A stretch of DNA of 64,000 nucleotides from Oscillospiraceae bacterium (GTDB lineage: Bacteria; Bacillota; Clostridia; Oscillospirales; Ruminococcaceae), in assembly GCA_015067025.1 (NCBI GenBank), contig SVNC01000010.1, positions 1-64,000 on the forward strand. Direction: 5' to 3'. Below, in pieces: positions 14,695-61,385 of the stretch (positions are counted from its first letter, which is position 1; each line of letters starts with the position of its first letter). Below the pieces are notes generated by a model that saw only the letters and a list, made by a program, of their open reading frames with translations, searched no databases and had not been told where the DNA came from. The translations under genes and the position numbers were made by a program.

Positions 14695-15615
14695 CTACCA
14701 CGGTTTTACAGTTCCCACTATATCAGAAAGCTTTTCGATCTTGTTTTCAATAAGGAATTTTTCGATGCCCTCGCATACCTTGATAGGTGCGTAAGGATCA
14801 CCGAATATTGCAGTACCCATCTGAAGTGCAGATGCACCCGCCATCATCATTTCGATAGCGTCCTCAGCAGTTGCAATACCGCCCATACCGATTACGGGAA
14901 TTTTAACAGCATTTGATACCTGCCATACCATTCTTACCGCAACGGGGAAAATAGCAGGGCCGGAAAGACCGCCTACGTTGTTGTGAAGGATAGGTCTTCT
15001 TGTACGGATGTCAATTCTCATACCAAGAAGAGTATTAATTACCGATACACTGTCTGCACCCTCTGCTTCTACCGCTCTTGCTATTTCTGTTATATCTGTT
15101 ACGTTAGGAGTAAGCTTTACTATAACAGGCTTCTTTGTAGCATTTCTTACAGCCTTCGTTACAGAAGCCGCACCCTCGCAGGTAACACCCCAGGTAGCAC
15201 CGCCCTTCTTTACGTTAGGGCAGGAAATGTTAAGCTCTATCATATCAACGTCAGTAGCGTCAAGCTTTTCTGCTACCTCTCTGTAGTCATCTATAGAAGC
15301 ACCTGCAATATTAGCGATAACCACTGTATCCTGCTGTTTTAATCTCGGCAGATAGTAGTTTATAAATCTGTCAATGCCGGGGTTCTGAAGACCTACGGAA
15401 TTGAGTATACCGCTGGGAGTTTCTGCAATTCGAGGAGGGATATTACCGTCCTTGGGGTTAAGTGTTGTACCCTTACAGGAAATACCGCCAAGTGCAGATA
15501 AGGGATAGAGGTCTGTATAATCTTCACCAAAGCCATAAGCACCTGATGCGGCAATTATGGGGTTTTTAAAGGTCTGTCCGCAAACGTTTACCGAGATATC
15601 AGGTCTTACACTCAT
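14695..15615 (-). CDS. pyrD: dihydroorotate dehydrogenase B, catalytic subunit
   Basis: A 306-residue FMN enzyme that oxidises dihydroorotate to orotate. It has the class 1B layout: IIAASGAYGFGEDY near the N-terminus, the NISCPNV motif carrying the active-site cysteine (ELNISCPNVKKGG), VKLTPNVTDI, and C-terminal phosphate-binding loops (GMGGIATAEDA, GASALQMGTAIF). It overlaps pyrK by four bases (ATGA) and has a GAGGAGGT ribosome site, so the two subunits are translationally coupled. It pairs with PyrK, which passes electrons to NAD+. It is the last gene of the operon. Confidence 0.97.
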   Translation of the reverse strand: MSVRPDISVNVCGQTFKNPIIAASGAYGFGEDYTDLYPLSALGGISCKGTTLNPKDGNIPPRIAETPSGILNSVGLQNPGIDRFINYYLPRLKQQDTVVIANIAGASIDDYREVAEKLDATDVDMIELNISCPNVKKGGATWGVTCEGAASVTKAVRNATKKPVIVKLTPNVTDITEIARAVEAEGADSVSVINTLLGMRIDIRTRRPILHNNVGGLSGPAIFPVAVRMVWQVSNAVKIPVIGMGGIATAEDAIEMMMAGASALQMGTAIFGDPYAPIKVCEGIEKFLIENKIEKLSDIVGTVKPW

Positions 15616-16385
15616 AATACTACCTCCTCACCCTTGAATACTGGGCCATCCTTACATACTCTTAAAACAAATTCCTTGCCGCCTCTTACAACTGTGCAGG
15701 CACATACTACGCAAGCACCGACGCCGCAACCCATTCTCTGTTCAAGAGAAACCTCGCTGTCAACGCCGGCCGCCTTTGTTGCTTCTACAATAGCCTTTAA
15801 CATAGGAGTAGGTCCGCAGGCATAAACACATGCCACGTCACCCTTTGCAAGCTCTTGTGTAAGGGGAGCTATTACCGTACCTTTCACACCTACAGAGCCG
15901 TCATCTGTGCAGACGATCGTCTTTGCACCTGTAGCGGCATAATCCTTATCTAAAATCACTCTGTCAAAACTGCGGAAGCCTAAGATAGCCGTGCAGTTTT
16001 CTCCGTACTGCTTTGCAATATCCAGCATAGGAGGTGTACCGATACCGCCACCGATAACTATTACTCTACCATCCTTCTTTGAAGGAGTTGTAAAGCCCTT
16101 GCCAAGAGGAGCGATAACGTCCATAAGGTCTCCCTTATTAAGCTCGGTTATCTTATCTGTACCCTTACCTCTTACTTCAAACACAAGACGGATAGTTCCC
16201 TTTTCCTTATCCGTGCTACAGATAGAAATAGGGCGGCGGAGTGTGTAACCCTCAGCCTTTATCTGTACAAACTGACCGATACTTGCATTTTCGGCAACCT
16301 CAGGACACAGGATAGTGTAAGAATAAATATCCTCTGCCAGTGCTTTTTTTTCGATTATCGGGTATGAATTGCAAAAAAAGCTCAT
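15612..16385 (-). CDS. pyrK: dihydroorotate dehydrogenase B, electron transfer subunit
   Basis: A 257-residue ferredoxin-reductase-like subunit. An N-terminal FAD-binding barrel (YTLRRPISICST is the flavin motif) is followed by an NAD-binding domain (GGGIGTPPMLDIAKQ, YACGPTPML) and a C-terminal [2Fe-2S] site with Cys220, Cys225, Cys228 and Cys244. It transfers electrons from PyrD FMN to NAD+. The start has a GAAAGGAAAA ribosome site. Its order pyrK-pyrD and the overlap are standard for Gram-positive bacteria. Confidence 0.96.
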   Translation of the reverse strand: MSFFCNSYPIIEKKALAEDIYSYTILCPEVAENASIGQFVQIKAEGYTLRRPISICSTDKEKGTIRLVFEVRGKGTDKITELNKGDLMDVIAPLGKGFTTPSKKDGRVIVIGGGIGTPPMLDIAKQYGENCTAILGFRSFDRVILDKDYAATGAKTIVCTDDGSVGVKGTVIAPLTQELAKGDVACVYACGPTPMLKAIVEATKAAGVDSEVSLEQRMGCGVGACVVCACTVVRGGKEFVLRVCKDGPVFKGEEVVL

Positions 16386-16456
16386 TGTGATTTTCCTTTC
16401 ATTTAAAGCATAAGCTACCGTAAGTATTCCCTGCGGCAGCTCTGTTATTACAGGAC

Positions 16457-17083
16457 TCAGCCACGCATTATAACATCGTCGCTGTCTTCCTTTTTCTTTA
16501 TCTTTACTTTTCCCTCTTCCTTAGAAGAAGATTTTGTCTGCTTATCTGTATCCTCTGCCGTTCTTTCCTTTGCAAAGGCTTTTATACGGCAGTAAGTAAT
16601 ATATATCACCAGTCCTGCCACTAAAATATCAAGCAGAACCTGAAGACTGAACCAGGATGCACCCTGAAGCAGTATATTGTTCTGGCATATATAAGTAAGA
16701 TCCCATAAAGCAAGAAGTGCCAAAATACGAAGCAGACTATTTGTTATCATTATCGTATCGTAATATTTCTGTGCATTTTCCTCTGTGATAATAAATCTCT
16801 TAGGTTCTTTATGCTCTTTGAACATAAACCATATAGAGAAAATTATAACTCCGAGTGCTACTGCCGGAAAGGCAAAGCCCTGAATCCACACGTAAAACGG
16901 AATACCGTCTGCAAATATCATCTCGATTATTCGTTTAAGCGTAGGATTTGAAGGACTTATGAGATTTGACACAAAAGCAAAGGTCGTCTGATAGATGAGG
17001 TACGCCAAAAGCAACCCCATCACATCAATAAAACCCTTTAATATGCCGTAGTTTAATTTAACCTTAAAATTACCTATCTTCAA
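16457..17083 (-). CDS. membrane protein of unknown function inside the pyrimidine operon
   Basis: A 208-residue protein with about four membrane helices (roughly residues 16-40, 62-86, 108-128 and 138-163) and a highly charged C-terminal tail (KSSSKEEGKVKIKKKEDSDD). The hydrophobic part resembles DUF2975-like four-helix proteins in general form, but I cannot assign a family. Translation starts at a TTG with AAGGTGAT upstream, only 9 nt after the carB stop, and pyrK follows, so it is embedded in the operon. A role in pyrimidine or ammonium uptake could be imagined but nothing in the sequence shows it. Confidence 0.7.
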   Translation of the reverse strand: MKIGNFKVKLNYGILKGFIDVMGLLLAYLIYQTTFAFVSNLISPSNPTLKRIIEMIFADGIPFYVWIQGFAFPAVALGVIIFSIWFMFKEHKEPKRFIITEENAQKYYDTIMITNSLLRILALLALWDLTYICQNNILLQGASWFSLQVLLDILVAGLVIYITYCRIKAFAKERTAEDTDKQTKSSSKEEGKVKIKKKEDSDDVIMRG

Positions 17084-17092
17084 CTTATCACC

Positions 17093-20000
17093 TTAAATTT
17101 TTGTGATGTCTATCATTTCGATATCATCAACTGTCTTGTCCATAGCAATACACTTAACAAGAGCATTTGCTGTATCAACTGAAGTAAGGCAGGCAATGGA
17201 ACGTTCAACCGACTTACGACGGATCTTAACGCTGTCACGGGCAGGCTTTCTGCCTGTTTCAGAGGTTGAAATAACGTAGTTTATCTTTCCGCTTTCAAGC
17301 AGGCTGATTACGTTAGGTTCCTTATCTTCGTTTATACGATAGGTGAAGTTTGTAGCTATCATATTTCTGTTGAGCATTGAAGCTGTACCGCTGGTAGCAT
17401 AAAGCTCAAAGCCGAGCTTTTCAAACTTTTCGGCAAGAGGAATGATCTCAGGCTTGTCGCTGTTCTTTACAGAGAACATTACGCCGCCGTTTTTGAACAT
17501 CTTAAAGCCTGCCGCCATAAGTCCCTTGAATAACGCTTCTTCAAAGGTCTTTGCAATACCAAGTGCTTCACCTGTGGACTTCATTTCAGGACCGAGCTGT
17601 GTATCAACGTCGTGGAGCTTTTCAAAGCTGAATACAGGAACCTTTACTGCTACGTAGTCGCCTACGGGGTAAAGACCACTCTGATAACCCTGCTCCTTTA
17701 AGGTCTGACCGAACATTATCTTTGTTGCAATATCAACCATCTGTACGCCTGTAACCTTACTGATATAAGGAACAGTTCTTGAAGAACGAGGGTTTACTTC
17801 AATTACGTAAACCTCGTTATCGTATACAACGTACTGGATATTTACAAGACCGATAACGTTAAGTGACTTTGCAAGTCTTTCTGTATATGTGATGATCGTA
17901 TCCTTTATCTTGTCAGAAAGTGTCTGGCAGGGATATACTGAAATACTGTCACCTGAGTGAACGCCTGCACGCTCGATGTGTTCCATAATACCGGGGATGA
18001 GGAAATCTGTACCGTCGCAGATAGCGTCAACCTCAACCTCTGTACCCATAAGGTACTTATCTATAAGAACAGGATTTTCAAGCTCTGTTGCAGTGATGAT
18101 AGTCATATATTCATCAACGTCGCTGTCGCAGTGTGCAATGATCATATTCTGACCGCCAAGTACGTAGGAAGGACGGAGCAGAACAGGATAACCAAGCTCG
18201 TTTGCAACCTTAAGTGCTTCTTCAGTTGTAAATACTGTGTGACCTGCAGGTCTGGGGATACCGCACTTTTCAAGAAGCTCGTCAAACTTTTCTCTGTCTT
18301 CTGCATCGTCGATGCTCTGTGCAGAAGTACCTAAAATTCTTACACCTATTTCCTGAAGATGCTTTGTCAGCTTGATAGCTGTCTGACCGCCGAACTGAAC
18401 AACTACGCCGTAGGGCTGTTCTGTTGCAATAAGAGAGTCAACGTCTTCAAAAGTAAGAGGATCAAAATAAAGTCTGTCACCTGTATCAAAGTCAGTAGAA
18501 ACCGTTTCAGGGTTATTGTTGCAGATGATTGCTTCATAACCAAGCTCCTTAAGAGCCCATACACAGTGAACGGAGCAGTAGTCGAATTCGATACCCTGAC
18601 CGATACGGATAGGACCTGAACCGAATACTATTACCTTTTTCTTATCTGTGGGGTGCTGCTTAATAAATTCAGCCGCTTCGTTTTCATCATCATATGTGCT
18701 GTAGAAATAAGGAGTTTCTGCCGCAAATTCTGCCGCACAGGTATCAACCATCTTATAAACAGCGTGACGGGTCTTTATACCCTTATCAGAAAGACTCTGA
18801 CCTGAAAGCTTTTCGATGGACTTATCAAGGTAGCAGTACTTCTTTGCAAGGTCGTACTTTTCCTGAGTAAGCTCACCGTCAGCAAGCCACTTTTCAAGCT
18901 CTACAAGGTTTAAAAGCTTTGAAATAAACCACTTGTCTATCTGTGTGATCTCATTTATTTCATCAACGCTGACGCCTCTCTTGAGAGCTTCAAAAATACA
19001 GAAGCATCTGTCAACGTCAACATTGTGGAGGTTTGCTCTGATTTCTTCGTCAGAAAGCTCTGCAAAAGTCTTTTTGGAAAGTGTATCCATACCAAGCTCG
19101 ATTGAACGTACAGCCTTTATCATAGCCGCTTCAAAGCTGGGTGCAATGGACATAATTTCGCCTGTTGCCTTCATCTGTGTACCAAGTGTTTTCTTTGCGT
19201 AAACGAACTTATCAAAGGGCCACTTGGGGAACTTTACTACAATGTAGTCGATGGAAGGCTCGAAGCAAGCGTAAGTCTTGCCTGTTACCTGGTTTAAGAT
19301 TTCATCAAGGCAGTAACCGATAGCAATCTTTGCCGCTACCTTAGCGATAGGATAACCTGTAGCCTTTGATGCGAGTGCAGAAGAACGGGAAACTCTGGGG
19401 TTTACCTCGATTACCGCATATTCAAAGCTGTCGGGCTTTAATGCAAACTGACAGTTACAGCCGCCTTCTACATCAAGTGCCTGAACAATGTTGAGCGCTG
19501 CTGTACGAAGCATCTGATATTCTATGTCTGTAAGAGATACTGCAGGAGCAACTACTATACTGTCGCCTGTGTGTACGCCTACAGGGTCCATGTTTTCCAT
19601 TGAACATACTGTGATTGCATTTCCCTTAGCGTCACGGATAACCTCAAATTCGATTTCCTTCCAGCCGGAGATACACTTTTCAACAAGTATCTGTGTAATA
19701 GGAGATAAACGAAGACCGTTTGTAGCGATTTCGTGAAGCTCCTTCTCATCGTATGCAATACCGCCGCCTGTACCGCCAAGAGTGAAGGCAGGTCTTACGA
19801 TTACGGGGTAGTCGATAACCTTTGCGAAGTCCATTGCATCTTCAACTGTTTCTACAACCTTTGAAGGAATGCAGGGCTCACCGATAGCCTCCATTGTATC
19901 CTTGAATGCCTGTCTGTCCTCTGCCTTGTGGATAGTTTCAGGTTTAGAACCAAGCAGTTTTACGTTATTTTCTGCAAGGAAGCCTTCCTCTGCAAGCTGC

Positions 20001-20299
20001 ATTGAAAGAGTAAGGCCTGTCTGACCGCCAAGGTTTGACAGAATACTGTCGGGCTTTTCAATCTTTATAATCTTCTTGATTACGTCAAGTGTTAAAGGCT
20101 CGATGTAAATCTTATCAGCCATATGCTTGTCCGTCATAATTGTAGCAGGATTTGAGTTTACTAAAACTACTTCAAGTCCTTCCTGCTTTAAAGCACGGCA
20201 AGCCTGTGTGCCTGCATAGTCAAACTCAGCAGCCTGACCGATTACGATAGGTCCTGAACCGATTACGAGAACCTTTTTGATATCACTTCTTAATGGCAT
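17093..20299 (-). CDS. carB: carbamoyl phosphate synthase, large subunit
   Basis: A 1068-residue synthetase, the normal length. Two homologous ATP-grasp halves are present (PIVIGQAAEFDYAGTQA, RPAFTLGGTGGG and EVNPRVSRSSALASKATGYP in the first; PIRIGQGIEFDYCSVH, RPSYVLGGQNM and EVNPRSSRTVPYISKVTG in the second), followed by an allosteric MGS-like domain near the end. It makes carbamoyl phosphate from bicarbonate, ATP and ammonia. It starts 1 nt after carA. Because the neighbouring CarA lacks its catalytic cysteine, this subunit may depend on free ammonia. Confidence 0.97.
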   Translation of the reverse strand: MPLRSDIKKVLVIGSGPIVIGQAAEFDYAGTQACRALKQEGLEVVLVNSNPATIMTDKHMADKIYIEPLTLDVIKKIIKIEKPDSILSNLGGQTGLTLSMQLAEEGFLAENNVKLLGSKPETIHKAEDRQAFKDTMEAIGEPCIPSKVVETVEDAMDFAKVIDYPVIVRPAFTLGGTGGGIAYDEKELHEIATNGLRLSPITQILVEKCISGWKEIEFEVIRDAKGNAITVCSMENMDPVGVHTGDSIVVAPAVSLTDIEYQMLRTAALNIVQALDVEGGCNCQFALKPDSFEYAVIEVNPRVSRSSALASKATGYPIAKVAAKIAIGYCLDEILNQVTGKTYACFEPSIDYIVVKFPKWPFDKFVYAKKTLGTQMKATGEIMSIAPSFEAAMIKAVRSIELGMDTLSKKTFAELSDEEIRANLHNVDVDRCFCIFEALKRGVSVDEINEITQIDKWFISKLLNLVELEKWLADGELTQEKYDLAKKYCYLDKSIEKLSGQSLSDKGIKTRHAVYKMVDTCAAEFAAETPYFYSTYDDENEAAEFIKQHPTDKKKVIVFGSGPIRIGQGIEFDYCSVHCVWALKELGYEAIICNNNPETVSTDFDTGDRLYFDPLTFEDVDSLIATEQPYGVVVQFGGQTAIKLTKHLQEIGVRILGTSAQSIDDAEDREKFDELLEKCGIPRPAGHTVFTTEEALKVANELGYPVLLRPSYVLGGQNMIIAHCDSDVDEYMTIITATELENPVLIDKYLMGTEVEVDAICDGTDFLIPGIMEHIERAGVHSGDSISVYPCQTLSDKIKDTIITYTERLAKSLNVIGLVNIQYVVYDNEVYVIEVNPRSSRTVPYISKVTGVQMVDIATKIMFGQTLKEQGYQSGLYPVGDYVAVKVPVFSFEKLHDVDTQLGPEMKSTGEALGIAKTFEEALFKGLMAAGFKMFKNGGVMFSVKNSDKPEIIPLAEKFEKLGFELYATSGTASMLNRNMIATNFTYRINEDKEPNVISLLESGKINYVISTSETGRKPARDSVKIRRKSVERSIACLTSVDTANALVKCIAMDKTVDDIEMIDITKI

Positions 20300-20300
20300 A

Positions 20301-21407
20301 TTACTTATTTCCCTCCATCAGACCGATAAATTTATCATAAAGATAAGACGTAGTACTCTTCTGTTCTCCTGTTTCAGGGTGGAACTGTACTGAGAATGCG
20401 GGAGTATTCTTATACTCAATACCCTCGCAAGTCTTATCGTTGGCATTCACGTGGCTTACTTCAGCCTTTGCGGCATCAACGCTGTCGTTTACAACTGCAT
20501 AGCCGTGATTTTGTGAAGTTACGTAAGTTGTACCGAAGTTCTTGTCTGTAACGGGCTGGCTTGCACCTCTGTGTCCGTATGTCAGCTTTTCTGTATCAAA
20601 GCCATTAGCAAGAGCTAAAAGCTGATGTCCCAGTCTGATGCCGAAAGTAGGGATATTCTCTGCAATCAGTTCCTTTAATGTGTTTACAGCATCTGCATTA
20701 TCCTTAGGATCTCCGGGGCCGTTTGAAAGAACTATACCATCGGGAGCAAATTCCTTTATCTCTTCCGCTGATACATTGTAAGGGAATACTGTAACGTCGC
20801 ACCCTCTCTTTGTAAGAGAGTTTACTATATTCTTTGTAAAGCCGTAGTCGATAAGTGCAACCTTGTACTTGCCGTTTTCTGCTGTAAAGGTCTTCTTTTC
20901 ACCGCTTACCTTTTCTACTGCGTTTACTACCTTGTATTCTTTGATTTCAGGCATTGCCTTTGCAAGAAATTCCTCAGTAGGCTCTTCGGTTGTGATCATA
21001 CCGTTCATAACGCCCTTTTCACGAAGTATTCTTGTAAGTCTTCTTGTATCTATATCGAAAAGACCGATAATGCCGTGCTTTTTAAGAAAGCTGTCTATAT
21101 CTCCCTTGCAACGGAAGTTTGAAGGTGCTTCACAATATTCACGAACGATATATCCGCTTATTGCAATTTTTTCTGAGGAATAGTCCTCGTCGTTCACACC
21201 GTAGTTACCGATAAGAGGGAAGGTCTGCACCATAATCTGTCCGCAGTAGGAAGGATCTGTTATTGCTTCCTGATAACCAACCATAGATGTGCTGAACACG
21301 ACCTCGCCGATCACCTTGCCTTCACTACCGAAGCTCTTTCCCTTGAAAACTGTGCCATCCGCTAAAATGAGATATGCGGTCTTTGCTTTAATCAGGTTTA
21401 AAGTCAT
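20301..21407 (-). CDS. carA: carbamoyl phosphate synthase small subunit with Arg replacing the catalytic Cys
   Basis: A 368-residue CarA homologue. The N-terminal small-subunit domain is followed by a class I glutamine amidotransferase domain (SNGPGDP near 228-234, QNHG near 299-302, His343 and Glu345 of HPE). The nucleophile elbow, normally FGICLGHQ, reads FGIRLGHQ: residue 258 is Arg (AGA codon at 20634-20636). The conserved GHRGANHPV is GHRGASQPV (Ser283, Gln284). Without the cysteine the glutaminase should be inactive, so the subunit may only be structural. It is otherwise intact, follows pyrF by 44 nt and precedes carB, so it is under operon selection. Confidence 0.93.
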   Translation of the reverse strand: MTLNLIKAKTAYLILADGTVFKGKSFGSEGKVIGEVVFSTSMVGYQEAITDPSYCGQIMVQTFPLIGNYGVNDEDYSSEKIAISGYIVREYCEAPSNFRCKGDIDSFLKKHGIIGLFDIDTRRLTRILREKGVMNGMITTEEPTEEFLAKAMPEIKEYKVVNAVEKVSGEKKTFTAENGKYKVALIDYGFTKNIVNSLTKRGCDVTVFPYNVSAEEIKEFAPDGIVLSNGPGDPKDNADAVNTLKELIAENIPTFGIRLGHQLLALANGFDTEKLTYGHRGASQPVTDKNFGTTYVTSQNHGYAVVNDSVDAAKAEVSHVNANDKTCEGIEYKNTPAFSVQFHPETGEQKSTTSYLYDKFIGLMEGNK

Positions 21408-21451
21408 TTAAGTTTGTTCCTTTCGAATAAAATATATAGAAAAGCTTTTTA

Positions 21452-22384
21452 TCAGGAGAGCTTGATCTCTCCTACAAAGCCCATTATTTCATCTCTCATA
21501 CGCATTGCTTCTCTGAATGCCGCACCTGCGTAATCACGCTCGTCACAGCCTTCCTTCTTGTATGCGCACATAATTCCTCTTGAGCTGTTTACGATACCGC
21601 CGAGACCGTTCTTATCAAACGCCGCCGCAATATCCTTTGCAGAAGCACCCTGAGCACCGTAACCCGGGATGAGGAAGAAAGTGTGGGGAAGCTTTTCACG
21701 AAGCTCTGCGATCTGTTCGGGGTATGTCGCACCTACTACAGCGCCCACGCCTGAATAGCCGTACTTGCCCATAAGCTCCTGTCCCCACTTTTCGCACATA
21801 TTACCCATATGTTCGTATACTGTGACGTCGCCTATCTTAAGATCCTGAAGCTCACCGCTTGAGGGATTTGACGTCTTTACTAAAACGAAGATGCCCTTGT
21901 CGTTTTCCTTACATACCTTAAGTAAGGGATTGATACCGTCACTGCCGAGGTAGCCGTTTACTGTAAGAGCGTCGCCCATAAAAGGAGTGTATTCTTCCTT
22001 GCCGACCTTGATCTTACCCAAGTGAGCAGCCGCATAAGCTTCCATCGTTGTACCGATATCGTTTCTCTTACCATCTGTAATTACGTACATACCTCTGCTT
22101 CTTGCATATTCCTGTGTCTTGTACAGAGTCTTCATACCTGCTGTACCATACATTTCGTAGTAAGCCGCCTGAGGCTTTACTGCAGGAACTATCTCGTGCA
22201 GAGCGTCAATAAGCCCCTTATTGTATTCGAGTATTGCCTTTGCCGCACCCTTAAGAGTTTCACCGTACTTGTTGAACGCCTTCTCCTTGATGTATTCAGG
22301 CACGAAGTCAAGCTTGGGGTCAAGACCTGCGACTGTAGGGTTCTGTGTACGCTCTATAGCCTCCATAAGTAAATCAAGTGACAT
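21452..22384 (-). CDS. pyrF: orotidine 5'-phosphate decarboxylase (type 2)
   Basis: A 310-residue OMP decarboxylase of the long bacterial type 2 class. The N-terminal NPTVAGLDPKLDFVP, the catalytic segment VITDGKRNDIG (the Asp/Lys charge network), and late FLIPGYGAQGAS and VNSSRGIM phosphate-binding motifs are all present. It makes UMP from OMP. It follows pyrC by 35 nt with a GAAAGGAAAGG ribosome site. The OMP-forming gene pyrE is not in this window. Confidence 0.96.
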   Translation of the reverse strand: MSLDLLMEAIERTQNPTVAGLDPKLDFVPEYIKEKAFNKYGETLKGAAKAILEYNKGLIDALHEIVPAVKPQAAYYEMYGTAGMKTLYKTQEYARSRGMYVITDGKRNDIGTTMEAYAAAHLGKIKVGKEEYTPFMGDALTVNGYLGSDGINPLLKVCKENDKGIFVLVKTSNPSSGELQDLKIGDVTVYEHMGNMCEKWGQELMGKYGYSGVGAVVGATYPEQIAELREKLPHTFFLIPGYGAQGASAKDIAAAFDKNGLGGIVNSSRGIMCAYKKEGCDERDYAGAAFREAMRMRDEIMGFVGEIKLS

Positions 22385-22419
22385 AAATTTTACCTTTCCT
22401 TTCTTTTTGTGCTTTATAT

Positions 22420-23691
22420 TTAATTATCTTTATATACAACCTGTCCATTAACTAAAGTGTATTTTACTCTGCCTTTAAGCTTCATACCCTTGAAGCAGGT
22501 GTTCTTTGATTTTGAGTGGAGCTTTTCAGGTTCTACCACCCAGGCTTCATTCGGGTCGAATATCGCGATATCGGCAACGTCGCCCACACCTAATGAACCG
22601 CCCTCTATACCGAGTATTCTTCTGGGATTTATACACATAAGTCTTACTATCTGTGCAAGATCTATCGTATCCGTATGATAAAACTCTGTAAGTGTTGCTG
22701 CAAGGGAGGTCTCCATTCCGACTACGCCGTTGGGAGCTTTTTCAAAGTCAGCCTTTTCTTCTGCTGTGTGAGGTGCGTGGTCTGTTACGATACAGTCGAT
22801 AGTACCGTCTGTTATCGCCGCTCTTACCGCCATAACATCGTCATCCTCACGAAGAGGAGGATTCATTCTGTAATCAGCGTCACGGGAAAGCAGTGCCTTA
22901 TCTGTAAGCATAAAGTAGTGGGGTGCAGTTTCGCAGGTGCACATTACACCGATGTGGGTATTACCTCTGATTATGTTGATACTGCCCTTTGTGCTTACGT
23001 GAGCAATGTGGATAGGCATCTGGCTTGCCTGAGCGATCGCAAGCTCTCTTGCTGTTATAGTGTCCTCGCTGAGTCGGCTCATACCCTTTACACCAAGTTC
23101 TCTTGAAACCTTACCCTTATTTATGATGCCGCCGTCTATAACGTCAAGGTCTTCACAGTGGGAAATTACCTTAAGTCCCGCATAATGAGCCTTAACCATA
23201 GCCTGAGCCATCATAGTAGTGGACTTTACAGGTCGTCCGTCATCGGATACCGCTACGCAACCCGCCTTACGGAGTGCCTCATAATCACACAACTCATTAC
23301 CTTCAAGGCCTTTCGTTATACAGCCTACAGGATAGACCTTAGCCTTGGCGTGCTTTGCTTTTTCTAAAATGTAGGAGATGACTTCGGGACAGTCTGCCGC
23401 AGGAGTGGTGTTGGGCATACATGCAACTGCTGTGATACCACCTGCTACCGCCGCTTCGCAACCTGTAAGGATATCCTCCTTATGTGTCTGACCCGGGTCT
23501 CTCAGATGCACGTGCATATCGCAAAGTCCCGGGAACACTGTAAGTCCTTCGCAATCGATGACTTCCGCTCCTTCACAGCTTAAGTTTTCACCAAGCTCGG
23601 AAATATAACCGTCCTTTACAAGTATGTCCGTCTTTCCCTGAAATCTATTCATCGGGTCTACGACGAAGCCGTTTTTCAGTAAAATCGCCAT
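22420..23691 (-). CDS. pyrC: dihydroorotase (class I, PyrC)
   Basis: A 423-residue amidohydrolase that cyclises carbamoyl aspartate. Metal-site motifs are visible: DMHVHLRDPGQ (HxH plus substrate Arg), the SHCEDLD and HIAHVS histidines, and the catalytic IVTDHAPHT. It is the first gene of the operon and has a GGAGGTG ribosome site 4 nt before the ATG. Transcription is likely governed by the leader hairpin upstream. Aspartate transcarbamoylase (pyrB) is absent from this operon and must be elsewhere. Confidence 0.96.
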   Translation of the reverse strand: MAILLKNGFVVDPMNRFQGKTDILVKDGYISELGENLSCEGAEVIDCEGLTVFPGLCDMHVHLRDPGQTHKEDILTGCEAAVAGGITAVACMPNTTPAADCPEVISYILEKAKHAKAKVYPVGCITKGLEGNELCDYEALRKAGCVAVSDDGRPVKSTTMMAQAMVKAHYAGLKVISHCEDLDVIDGGIINKGKVSRELGVKGMSRLSEDTITARELAIAQASQMPIHIAHVSTKGSINIIRGNTHIGVMCTCETAPHYFMLTDKALLSRDADYRMNPPLREDDDVMAVRAAITDGTIDCIVTDHAPHTAEEKADFEKAPNGVVGMETSLAATLTEFYHTDTIDLAQIVRLMCINPRRILGIEGGSLGVGDVADIAIFDPNEAWVVEPEKLHSKSKNTCFKGMKLKGRVKYTLVNGQVVYKDN

Positions 23692-58716: not shown

Positions 58717-60678
58717 TTGAAAAATAAATTTGTTTATTTCACACAGACAGACGCTCCCCTGATGGGCATACAAAGAAGTTATCTGAATATTTTGTGTTAC
58801 ATGGCTGACAAGCTCAGATGTACAGCATATTATATCAATAACAGCTTTTCGGATGAAACAGAGTATTATAAAAACTCAAAGGCGAAATTTCTGAGCATAG
58901 AAGAAGGTAACGCAATAGATTTTAAAGATGCTGTCATTCTTGTACAGCCAAATTATCTGTTCTTTATGCTGAGTGTATTATCAATACCTGATAATACAAA
59001 AATATGTCTGTTAAGCGGTGACCCGTACTCTGAAAAGAGATTACTTGATATTCTGAGTACTACAAGTTCCGATCGTGATAGCGTGCTACAAATGATATCA
59101 GAGCATAATTGCAGAGTCTTTTCTGACGTATCAACTGACATGCATCAGAAAATCAATATAACACTGACAGACGGCAAGTCTGTACCCGTGCTTTCGGATA
59201 TGCTTACAGCATCCGCATCGGCAACTACTCTTACGGTCGGCATGATAAAGGACTGTGCCGGAATAAAGCATCATCTTGATGCATATAAAGCATACTGTAA
59301 AAAAACACCTGACTGTGATTACTCTGATTTCTTCACATTCCTTAAAAATCGAAGATCGGATGAAGCACCGAAAACGGTCAGCATCTCTGCTAGCGGCAAA
59401 CGGTTAATTAAATCAGCTATAAAAAAAGTCGTTCCGAACAGCATAATATATCGTAAATATTACCTGGTTCAGCGGGAATACAAGAAAAAGCAGGAATATG
59501 TAAAAAGGGTTTTAAAGAAAAACGGAAAGATAAAGGTTGGCTTTATACTTGTTTTTAACAGCGTTTTTCCTTGCAGAACAGTATTTGAACATATGCTGAA
59601 AAGCGATACCTTTGACCCTTATATCATAGTAGCTCCTAATATAAGTCGTTCGATGAAATTCCAGGTCGACACGCTAAACGAGACATATGATAGCCTGTCA
59701 ACACAATATCCCGGTCGTGTAATAGCGGGTTACGATATCAGAAATGACCGTTATCTTGAACTGGGTGAGGAATACAGCGTTATATTCTTCTGTAATCCCT
59801 ATAAAAATCTTGTTCATCCTTTTCACGAGATCGAATATTTTCTTAATAAGAATGTTCTTACAGCTTATGTAAATTATGGACTTGCAACACTTAGTTTCTG
59901 GAAAAATATTCTTGCTACTGATTTCTATAATTACCTGTGGAAGGTCACGGTAGAAACGAAGGACAATTACAAATTCCAGAAAAAGCATCATAAGATCAGA
60001 GCAAAAAATACATTTATAGCAGGTTATCCCAAAATGGACAAGCTTGCTGATTATACACGAAATAAAAAAACAAAGAAAACTATTATAATATGCCCACACC
60101 ACACGGTATGGGGCTGGAATGAACTGAACATCTCCAATTTTCTAACTTATAACGAATTCTTTCTCAGATTACCAAAGATCTATCCTGATATAGATTTTAT
60201 TTTCCGACCGCATCCGTTGCTTTTTTCTCACCTGAAATCACACGGTATATGGTCAGAAGAACAAATACAGGAATATCTCAATAAGCTGAAAAAAAATAAA
60301 AACGTGGTCTATGACACTTCCGGTGACTATTTAGAGCAATTTGCATACAGTGATGCGATGATTCACGATTGCGGGTCATTTATAGGCGAATATCTGTATA
60401 CTGAAAAACCGTGTTGCTATATGATGAAGTCAAAGGAGCACACTACAGATAATCTGACACCGCTCGGAAAAAAATGTATGGCTCAGCACTATCACGCGTT
60501 TAACGAGCAGGAAATATGCAGGTTTATAGAAGATGTAGTAATAAACGAAAATGATCCTATGGCAAAAGACAGAATAAACTTTGTTGATAAAGAATTGAAG
60601 GTAAAATTCCCACACTCAGCACAGTATATTACTGAAACCATAAAAAAATCAATTATAAAGACGGAGGACAAAAAATGA
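58717..60678 (+). CDS. TagF-like polymerase domain protein
   Basis: A 653-residue protein whose C-terminal 390 residues resemble the CDP-glycerol glycerophosphotransferase family: IICPHHTVWGWNELNISNF, DIDFIFRPHPLLFSHL and SDAMIHDCGSFIGEYLYTEKPCCYM. The N-terminal 270 residues are unassigned. Translation begins at TTG with AAGGGAGGG upstream. It pairs with the preceding 904-residue TagF-like protein, so two such polymerases work in one pathway. The stop overlaps the next gene by four bases. Confidence 0.8.
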   Translation: MKNKFVYFTQTDAPLMGIQRSYLNILCYMADKLRCTAYYINNSFSDETEYYKNSKAKFLSIEEGNAIDFKDAVILVQPNYLFFMLSVLSIPDNTKICLLSGDPYSEKRLLDILSTTSSDRDSVLQMISEHNCRVFSDVSTDMHQKINITLTDGKSVPVLSDMLTASASATTLTVGMIKDCAGIKHHLDAYKAYCKKTPDCDYSDFFTFLKNRRSDEAPKTVSISASGKRLIKSAIKKVVPNSIIYRKYYLVQREYKKKQEYVKRVLKKNGKIKVGFILVFNSVFPCRTVFEHMLKSDTFDPYIIVAPNISRSMKFQVDTLNETYDSLSTQYPGRVIAGYDIRNDRYLELGEEYSVIFFCNPYKNLVHPFHEIEYFLNKNVLTAYVNYGLATLSFWKNILATDFYNYLWKVTVETKDNYKFQKKHHKIRAKNTFIAGYPKMDKLADYTRNKKTKKTIIICPHHTVWGWNELNISNFLTYNEFFLRLPKIYPDIDFIFRPHPLLFSHLKSHGIWSEEQIQEYLNKLKKNKNVVYDTSGDYLEQFAYSDAMIHDCGSFIGEYLYTEKPCCYMMKSKEHTTDNLTPLGKKCMAQHYHAFNEQEICRFIEDVVINENDPMAKDRINFVDKELKVKFPHSAQYITETIKKSIIKTEDKK

Positions 60679-61385
60679 ACATTGGTGTAATTATCGCAGG
60701 CGGAAGCGGCAGAAGAATGCAGCAGGAAATCCCCAAGCAGTTTATCAATATAAACGATAAACCCGTTCTTATATATACTCTTGAGGCTTTCCAGAACCAT
60801 CCTCTTATTTCTGCAATAGAGGTAGTATGTATTGACGGCTGGCACGACGTTGTATGGTCTTATGCGAAACAGTACAATATCACTAAATTAAAATGGATAG
60901 TTTCAGGCGGTAGCACCGGTCAGGAATCTATCAGAAACGGTGTTTATAATCTTGAAGACAAATGCAGTCCTGATGATGTTATAATTATTCACGATGGTAT
61001 TCGTCCTTTAGTTGATCAGGAAGTACTTACCGATATTATCGTTAAGTGCGAACAGTACGGCAATGCTGTTACATCACTGCCTTACAATGAGCAGATATTC
61101 GTAATTGACGATGAAATCTCTACAACAAAGTATATCCCCCGTGAAACTCTCAGAAGAGTATCTACACCACAGGCTTATAAATTCGGTAAACTCGACTGGG
61201 CATATCATGAGGCCTTTGAAAAGGAAATCGGAATTTACGGTTCTTCTTATACCAATACAATGATGGTAGAACTTGGAGAAAGACTGTATTTTGCCGCAGG
61301 TTCAGATAAAAACATCAAGCTTACAACACCTGACGACCTTGCTATGTTTAAGGCACTGATCTCACAAAAAAAGACGGAGAGATAA
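60675..61385 (+). CDS. IspD/TarI-family cytidylyltransferase
   Basis: A 236-residue nucleotidyltransferase. The CTP site IIAGGSGRRMQQEIPKQF is at residues 6-23, and GSTGQESIRNGV, VIIHDGIRPLV and the late RVSTPQAY and KLTTPDDL motifs follow IspD/TarI. In this context TarI-like activity (CDP-ribitol or another CDP-polyol) is more likely than the MEP-pathway IspD. It overlaps the TagF-like gene by four bases and the SDR starts 1 nt after it. A fused pair of this type (Bcs1/Acs1) makes CDP-ribitol in other bacteria. Confidence 0.85.
   Translation: MNIGVIIAGGSGRRMQQEIPKQFININDKPVLIYTLEAFQNHPLISAIEVVCIDGWHDVVWSYAKQYNITKLKWIVSGGSTGQESIRNGVYNLEDKCSPDDVIIIHDGIRPLVDQEVLTDIIVKCEQYGNAVTSLPYNEQIFVIDDEISTTKYIPRETLRRVSTPQAYKFGKLDWAYHEAFEKEIGIYGSSYTNTMMVELGERLYFAAGSDKNIKLTTPDDLAMFKALISQKKTER

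Follow-up and report, generated by a model that had tools for sequence, protein, structure and literature searches.

The closest described relatives of the system reported here are the CPS of E. coli and the animal CPS1. According to PMC6245113, a review, E. coli CPS takes glutamine as its physiologically relevant donor, and Cys269 and His353 are both essential for glutamine hydrolysis. The same review holds a point against any reliance of such an enzyme on ammonia, namely that E. coli CPS requires very high, likely unphysiological ammonia. As stated in PMC4655335, all CPS types but CPS1 use glutamine, and CPS1 has Ser294 at the Cys position and a tunnel blocked by the Gln that it carries for Gly293. 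E. coli variants with the tunnel blocked or perforated are also described there, in which glutamine use was lost and the activity with external ammonia was normal. The CarA described below is very probably unable to hydrolyse glutamine and kept as a non-catalytic scaffold, and the unchanged CarB would use bicarbonate, ATP and free ammonia, much as carbamoyl phosphate is formed in animal liver.

The window is the whole stretch of DNA that was analysed, 64,000 nucleotides from an Oscillospiraceae bacterium, and its pyr operon is presented in Table 1. The carA and carB genes were assigned by family profile and PyrK by weaker matches, and pyrC, pyrF and pyrD were named by look and are presumably these genes. 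ORFs and gene order bore out the claim of the earlier note that the frame of carA is intact and the operon complete, and the same gene order was found in the sibling loci L057 and L058.

Table 1. Coordinates of the pyr operon and of the altered sites of CarA in the window
Feature	Position	Strand	Basis
pyr operon (pyrC, pyrF, carA, carB, ORF 16460-17020, pyrK, pyrD)	14698..23691	-	ORFs, gene order
carB, large synthase subunit, 1068 aa	17093..20299	-	TIGR01369, 1448.3 bits (cut-off 1027)
carA, small subunit, glutaminase nucleophile lost	20301..21407	-	Intact 368-aa ORF; TIGR01368, 443.6 bits (cut-off 307.35)
Codons 349-352, Gln Lys Ser Thr replacing Gly-Pro-x-Asp	20352..20363	-	Alignment with sisters
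Codon 283, Ser replacing conserved Asn	20559..20561	-	Asn conserved (95% or more) among 132 Cys-type rows
Codon 258, AGA (Arg), aligned with E. coli Cys269	20634..20636	-	Alignment

For membership of TIGR01368, the bit score of the window CarA lies above the curated cut-off and both Pfam domains, CPSase_sm_chain (13-138) and GATase (185-361), are present. The His and Glu of the Cys-His-Glu triad are in place as His343 and Glu345, and the catalytic Cys is absent, with residues 255-262 reading FGIRLGHQ and not the usual FGICLGHQ. The replacement by Arg258, reported in the earlier note, was confirmed when the ORF and the codon were read again. That note had also judged a base-call error unlikely; two substitutions separate AGA from TGT or TGC, and two siblings (L003 and L004) share the AGA codon, and such an error is thereby excluded. 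A second complete CarA, the presence of which would have spoken against the reading, was searched for by TIGR01368, and a single match was obtained in the window's genome (98.54% complete, 29 contigs).

A CarA match was found in 70 of the 71 genomes of the genus that were searched. Three of these CarA were 90-93% identical to that of the window over the full length and the next reached at most 70%, and the window's genome (G000) and these three siblings (G033, G023 and G025) are referred to as the clade. Residue 258 in the four species was R, R, R and G (codons AGA, AGA, AGA and GGT, respectively), so that the Cys, retained as FGICLGHQ in the sisters at about 70% identity, was gone throughout the clade, as an alignment with related genomes had been proposed to reveal. 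No close relative of this CarA above 60% identity was found on plasmids. A sequencing or binning error at the Arg codon might be thought of in view of the three siblings being MAGs and the window's genome lying in 29 contigs; it was refuted by the siblings and has a negligible probability, since four genomes agree on the loss, the surrounding codons differ and several more changes are present. The sibling MAGs were recorded as Ruminiclostridium sp. from the colon of water deer, goat and roe deer; of the ammonia-rich gut or rumen habitat suggested before, the hindgut thus fits better than the rumen, and an ammonia-rich hindgut would be the likely setting.

The further losses were estimated over 82 positions, defined as those conserved in at least 95% of the 132 Cys-type CarA rows. 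Nine of these were lost in the window CarA: two lie in the N-terminal part, and seven (K191, C258, N283, G349, P350, D352 and F357) are among the 46 of the glutaminase part. The Cys-type rows lost on average 0.70 and 0.74 conserved positions per part, with up to 15 and 11 in single rows, and the count of changes alone is therefore not diagnostic. N283S, G349Q, P350K and D352T occurred in all four clade CarA, an Ala stood for G232 in three of them and for G256 in two, and H343 was Arg in one (G025). Two additional changes had been noted in GHRGASQPV; the one from Asn283 to Ser is indeed unusual, and Gln284 and Ala282 proved to be common in Cys-bearing relatives. His343 and Glu345 are kept in the window CarA as stated, though not His343 in the sibling G025, and the statement that all structural motifs are kept was wrong, the GGPHD that follows HPE in the sisters being EQKST here.

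Residue 349 (Gln) of the window CarA falls in the alignment on Gly359 of E. coli, a position occupied by Phe in PDB 1m6v. The AlphaFold model of the protein gave a confident fold (mean pLDDT 90.0, pTM 0.90), with confidence below 50 at residues 1-4 and 348-350. An engineered blockage of the ammonia tunnel reportedly prevents the use of glutamine and not that of ammonia, as the title of one study has it, and this blockage was reportedly placed at Gly359. Gln349 and Lys350 may narrow the internal ammonia tunnel, and ammonia would enter by a route other than the old glutaminase. The loss of the loop 349-352, and that of His343 in one sibling, strengthen the reading put forward in the earlier note. 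We infer that the clade CarA has no glutaminase activity and that ammonia is the physiological donor.

The rate of change in the operon was estimated from mean identities between clade and sisters and within the sisters (from four loci of each group, or fewer where a locus ends). These were 67.3% and 86.8% for CarA, 90.2 and 94.4 for CarB, 86.1 and 86.3 for PyrF, 79.4 and 80.3 for PyrC, 88.4 and 85.8 for PyrD, and 81.9 and 79.2 for PyrK, respectively. CarA alone in the operon is accelerated, and was so before the clade radiated, in both of its parts (clade to sisters versus within sisters, 70.3 vs 83.7 for the N-terminal part and 65.4 vs 90.2 for the glutaminase part). The acceleration, together with the absence of CTP synthase, which suggests some dependence on salvage, would be expected if CarA were a decaying leftover and carbamoyl phosphate came from carbamate kinase or citrulline breakdown, or pyrimidines were salvaged. 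This is very improbable, because dN/dS within the clade was 0.062 for CarA and 0.034 for CarB (counting method; sister dS above 1, near saturation), the frames are intact in all four species and conservation elsewhere in the operon is normal. The clade CarA is under purifying selection (dN/dS 0.035 in the N-terminal part and 0.079 in the glutaminase part), and the subunit is retained, as had been supposed from the window. CarA would be kept as a scaffold for a structural, perhaps regulatory, partnership with CarB, for which free ammonia, together with bicarbonate and ATP, would be the substrate of carbamoyl phosphate synthesis.

In the three clade members with a full-length CarB, 278 of the 280 conserved positions were kept (the fourth CarB is cut by a contig end and lies outside this count); among 40 CarB rows that accompany a Cys CarA, the mean was 1.8 and the maximum 7 of 280 changed. 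No adaptation of the clade CarB to ammonia was visible. This is counted against ammonia as the donor, and so are the glutamine synthetase and the other intact glutaminases of the clade. Between carB and pyrK lies the ORF 16460-17020 (187 aa, minus strand), with 78-80% identity to its counterparts in two siblings and 37-48% to those of four sisters, for which no Pfam or NCBIfam match was obtained.

The same glutamine enzymes lend some credit to another explanation, that the ammonia is still derived from glutamine, by another glutaminase acting in trans or docked on the old CarA surface, which is kept under purifying selection. It is nevertheless judged improbable, as PF00117 matched nothing besides CarA and HisH in any of the four clade genomes (4 to 5 matches in each of four sisters), and the operon shows no partner gene beyond the ORF 16460-17020, which the sisters with Cys CarA have too.

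In the clade, GuaA is encoded by an open frame of 330-340 aa that comprises the ATPPase and C-terminal parts and no glutaminase domain; it is 53.7% identical over 311 aa to the 530-aa enzyme of the sister G001 (loci L169, 1498-2493 on the minus strand of contig C18 in G000, and L166, L167 and L168 in the siblings). A separate glutaminase subunit of GMP synthetase was not seen by PF00117 in the four clade genomes. According to PMC10526850, GMP synthetases of bacteria are chains of two domains, and external ammonia can serve in vitro both two-domain enzymes and ATPPase subunits. The catalytic Cys was kept in HisH, PurL, GlmS and AsnB of the clade (HisH, GlmS, AsnB and PurF being named by look or Pfam query and not by family scan), and the loss of glutaminases is therefore selective. 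PF00120 (glutamine synthetase) gave two matches in each clade genome and one in G001; with at least four enzymes having an intact glutaminase Cys, the clade makes and uses glutamine, and a total switch away from it was ruled out. A search for the glutaminase domain gave a PurF-like match in the sister G001 (C1:1884183-1884581, L175) and none in the four clade genomes. The missing TrpG was dropped as a part of the pattern, since G001, which has a Cys CarA, also lacks a TrpG-sized match.

Beyond the clade, residue 258 was recorded in 162 distinct CarA (six short sequences dropped), a non-random sample of the best matches to the window CarA and of loci sought as Cys-less. It was Cys in 132, Gly in 24, Arg in three, Ser in two and Asp in one, and 30 of the 162 were thus Cys-less. 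His343 was often gone together with the Cys (Tyr, Asp, Val and others). Across 398 genomes of the phylum, a pattern survey that could not register T-initial codons or altered motifs gave nine matches, seven of which were CarA, six besides that of the window; the matches in G731 and G544 were not CarA. A CarB tree of 97 rows, 23 of them Cys-less, was built by a quick method, with several long branches and a program warning on one join; on it the CarA state needs 11 changes, at least six of them on well-supported branches. From these sequences the loss of the Cys is recurrent and separate in several relatives, and the window clade is not unique. Among 80 loci with records, 14 were Cys-less, and 10 of these came from ruminant colon, cecum or rectum, as did 2 of the 66 with Cys, in a count uncorrected for relatedness and with many records giving no host. 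A Cys CarA alongside the Cys-less one was found in G004, G009, G759, G766, G607, G397, G692 and G733, and probably in G601, where the second hit is of CarA length; in others the Cys-less CarA is the sole one. The loci L218-L221 (G733, G692, G526 and G601) contain a family-wide Cys-less CarA adjoining carB, in which Gly takes the position of the Cys and Asp that of the catalytic His; of these genomes G692 and G733 have the additional Cys CarA and G526 shows the Cys-less CarA only.

CTP synthase (PyrG) was searched for with PF06418 in 80 genome entries representing 79 distinct genomes (G004 and G764 had the same coordinates and scores and were counted once). It was unmatched in 14 of 21 genomes with a Cys-less CarA only, in 1 of 9 with two CarA and in 2 of 49 with a Cys CarA only. 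None was found by PF06418 in the four clade genomes (G000, G033, G023 and G025), nor in G028, G012, G760-G763, G765, G767-G769, G766, G047 and G062. Since completeness is 61-88% for some genomes and not given for those represented by named loci, single absences may be gaps. The Fisher p for 14/21 versus 2/49 was 5.6e-8, ignoring relatedness. A tree-aware test of 55 genomes (10 more had no usable CarB) gave four independent well-supported pairs differing in CarA state, in which PyrG followed the CarA state in an average of 3.7 and never ran against it (median p 0.125, weak). Against a tight link, G014, G045, G011, G010, G046, G015 and G526 have a Cys-less CarA only and yet PyrG, and G047 and G062 lack PyrG and yet have a Cys CarA. 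The link between the Cys-less CarA and the missing PyrG is a correlation.

In spite of the missing PyrG match, the clade retains its pyrimidine operon, and cytidylyltransferase-like genes are present (window 60675-61382). Among the named ORFs of the pyr operon neighbourhoods inspected, no shared candidate for an alternative CTP synthase was seen. Among eight other PyrG-less genomes with a Cys-less CarA only (G028 and G012 excluded), one (G768) had a PF00117 match of GuaA length, and no PF00117 match besides CarA was found in G760, G761 and G762. The simplest reading of the link would be an ammonia- and nucleoside-rich habitat with cytidine salvage. It is unlikely that core nucleotide synthesis switched to free ammonia in place of glutamine in several hindgut lineages, each independently, with the CarA glutaminase dead, GMP synthetase deprived of its glutaminase domain and PyrG replaced by an ammonia-using enzyme making a cytidine nucleotide.

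No report of a natural Cys-less bacterial CarA, or of PyrG loss in such gut bacteria, was found among the titles and abstracts listed by searches of open-access literature. If the reading holds, these CarA would be a natural bacterial counter-case to the glutamine-using CPS, arisen several times, and with several independent origins the order of glutaminase loss could be compared across the events and with animal CPS1. The association with the missing CTP synthase makes the source of CTP in such bacteria a testable question.

Compared with the known systems, the window enzyme shares with E. coli CarAB (TIGR01368 and TIGR01369) the two separate subunits, the domains and the gene order carA-carB, and differs from it in that CarA is without the catalytic Cys, the conserved Asn and the Gly359-equivalent loop. 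The E. coli mutants Ser269 (1c30) and Phe359 (1m6v) are engineered single changes at two positions, as seen from the chain sequences, that are both altered in the window CarA, which is natural and carries other residues there and further losses. Animal CPS1 (PDB 5dot and 6uel) is a sequence relative, and in both the glutaminase-like part is kept without the Cys. CPS1 is one long chain whereas the window system consists of separate carA and carB ORFs, the Cys position is Ser in CPS1 and Arg or Gly in the clade, and the tunnel is changed at Gly293 in CPS1 and would be changed at the Gly359 equivalent in the window CarA, in which the Gly293 position is Ala282, an Ala also found in Cys-type relatives. 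The clade enzyme most likely works like CPS1, yet by its two chains, its other residues and its nesting among Cys-type bacterial CarA it is not a CPS1.
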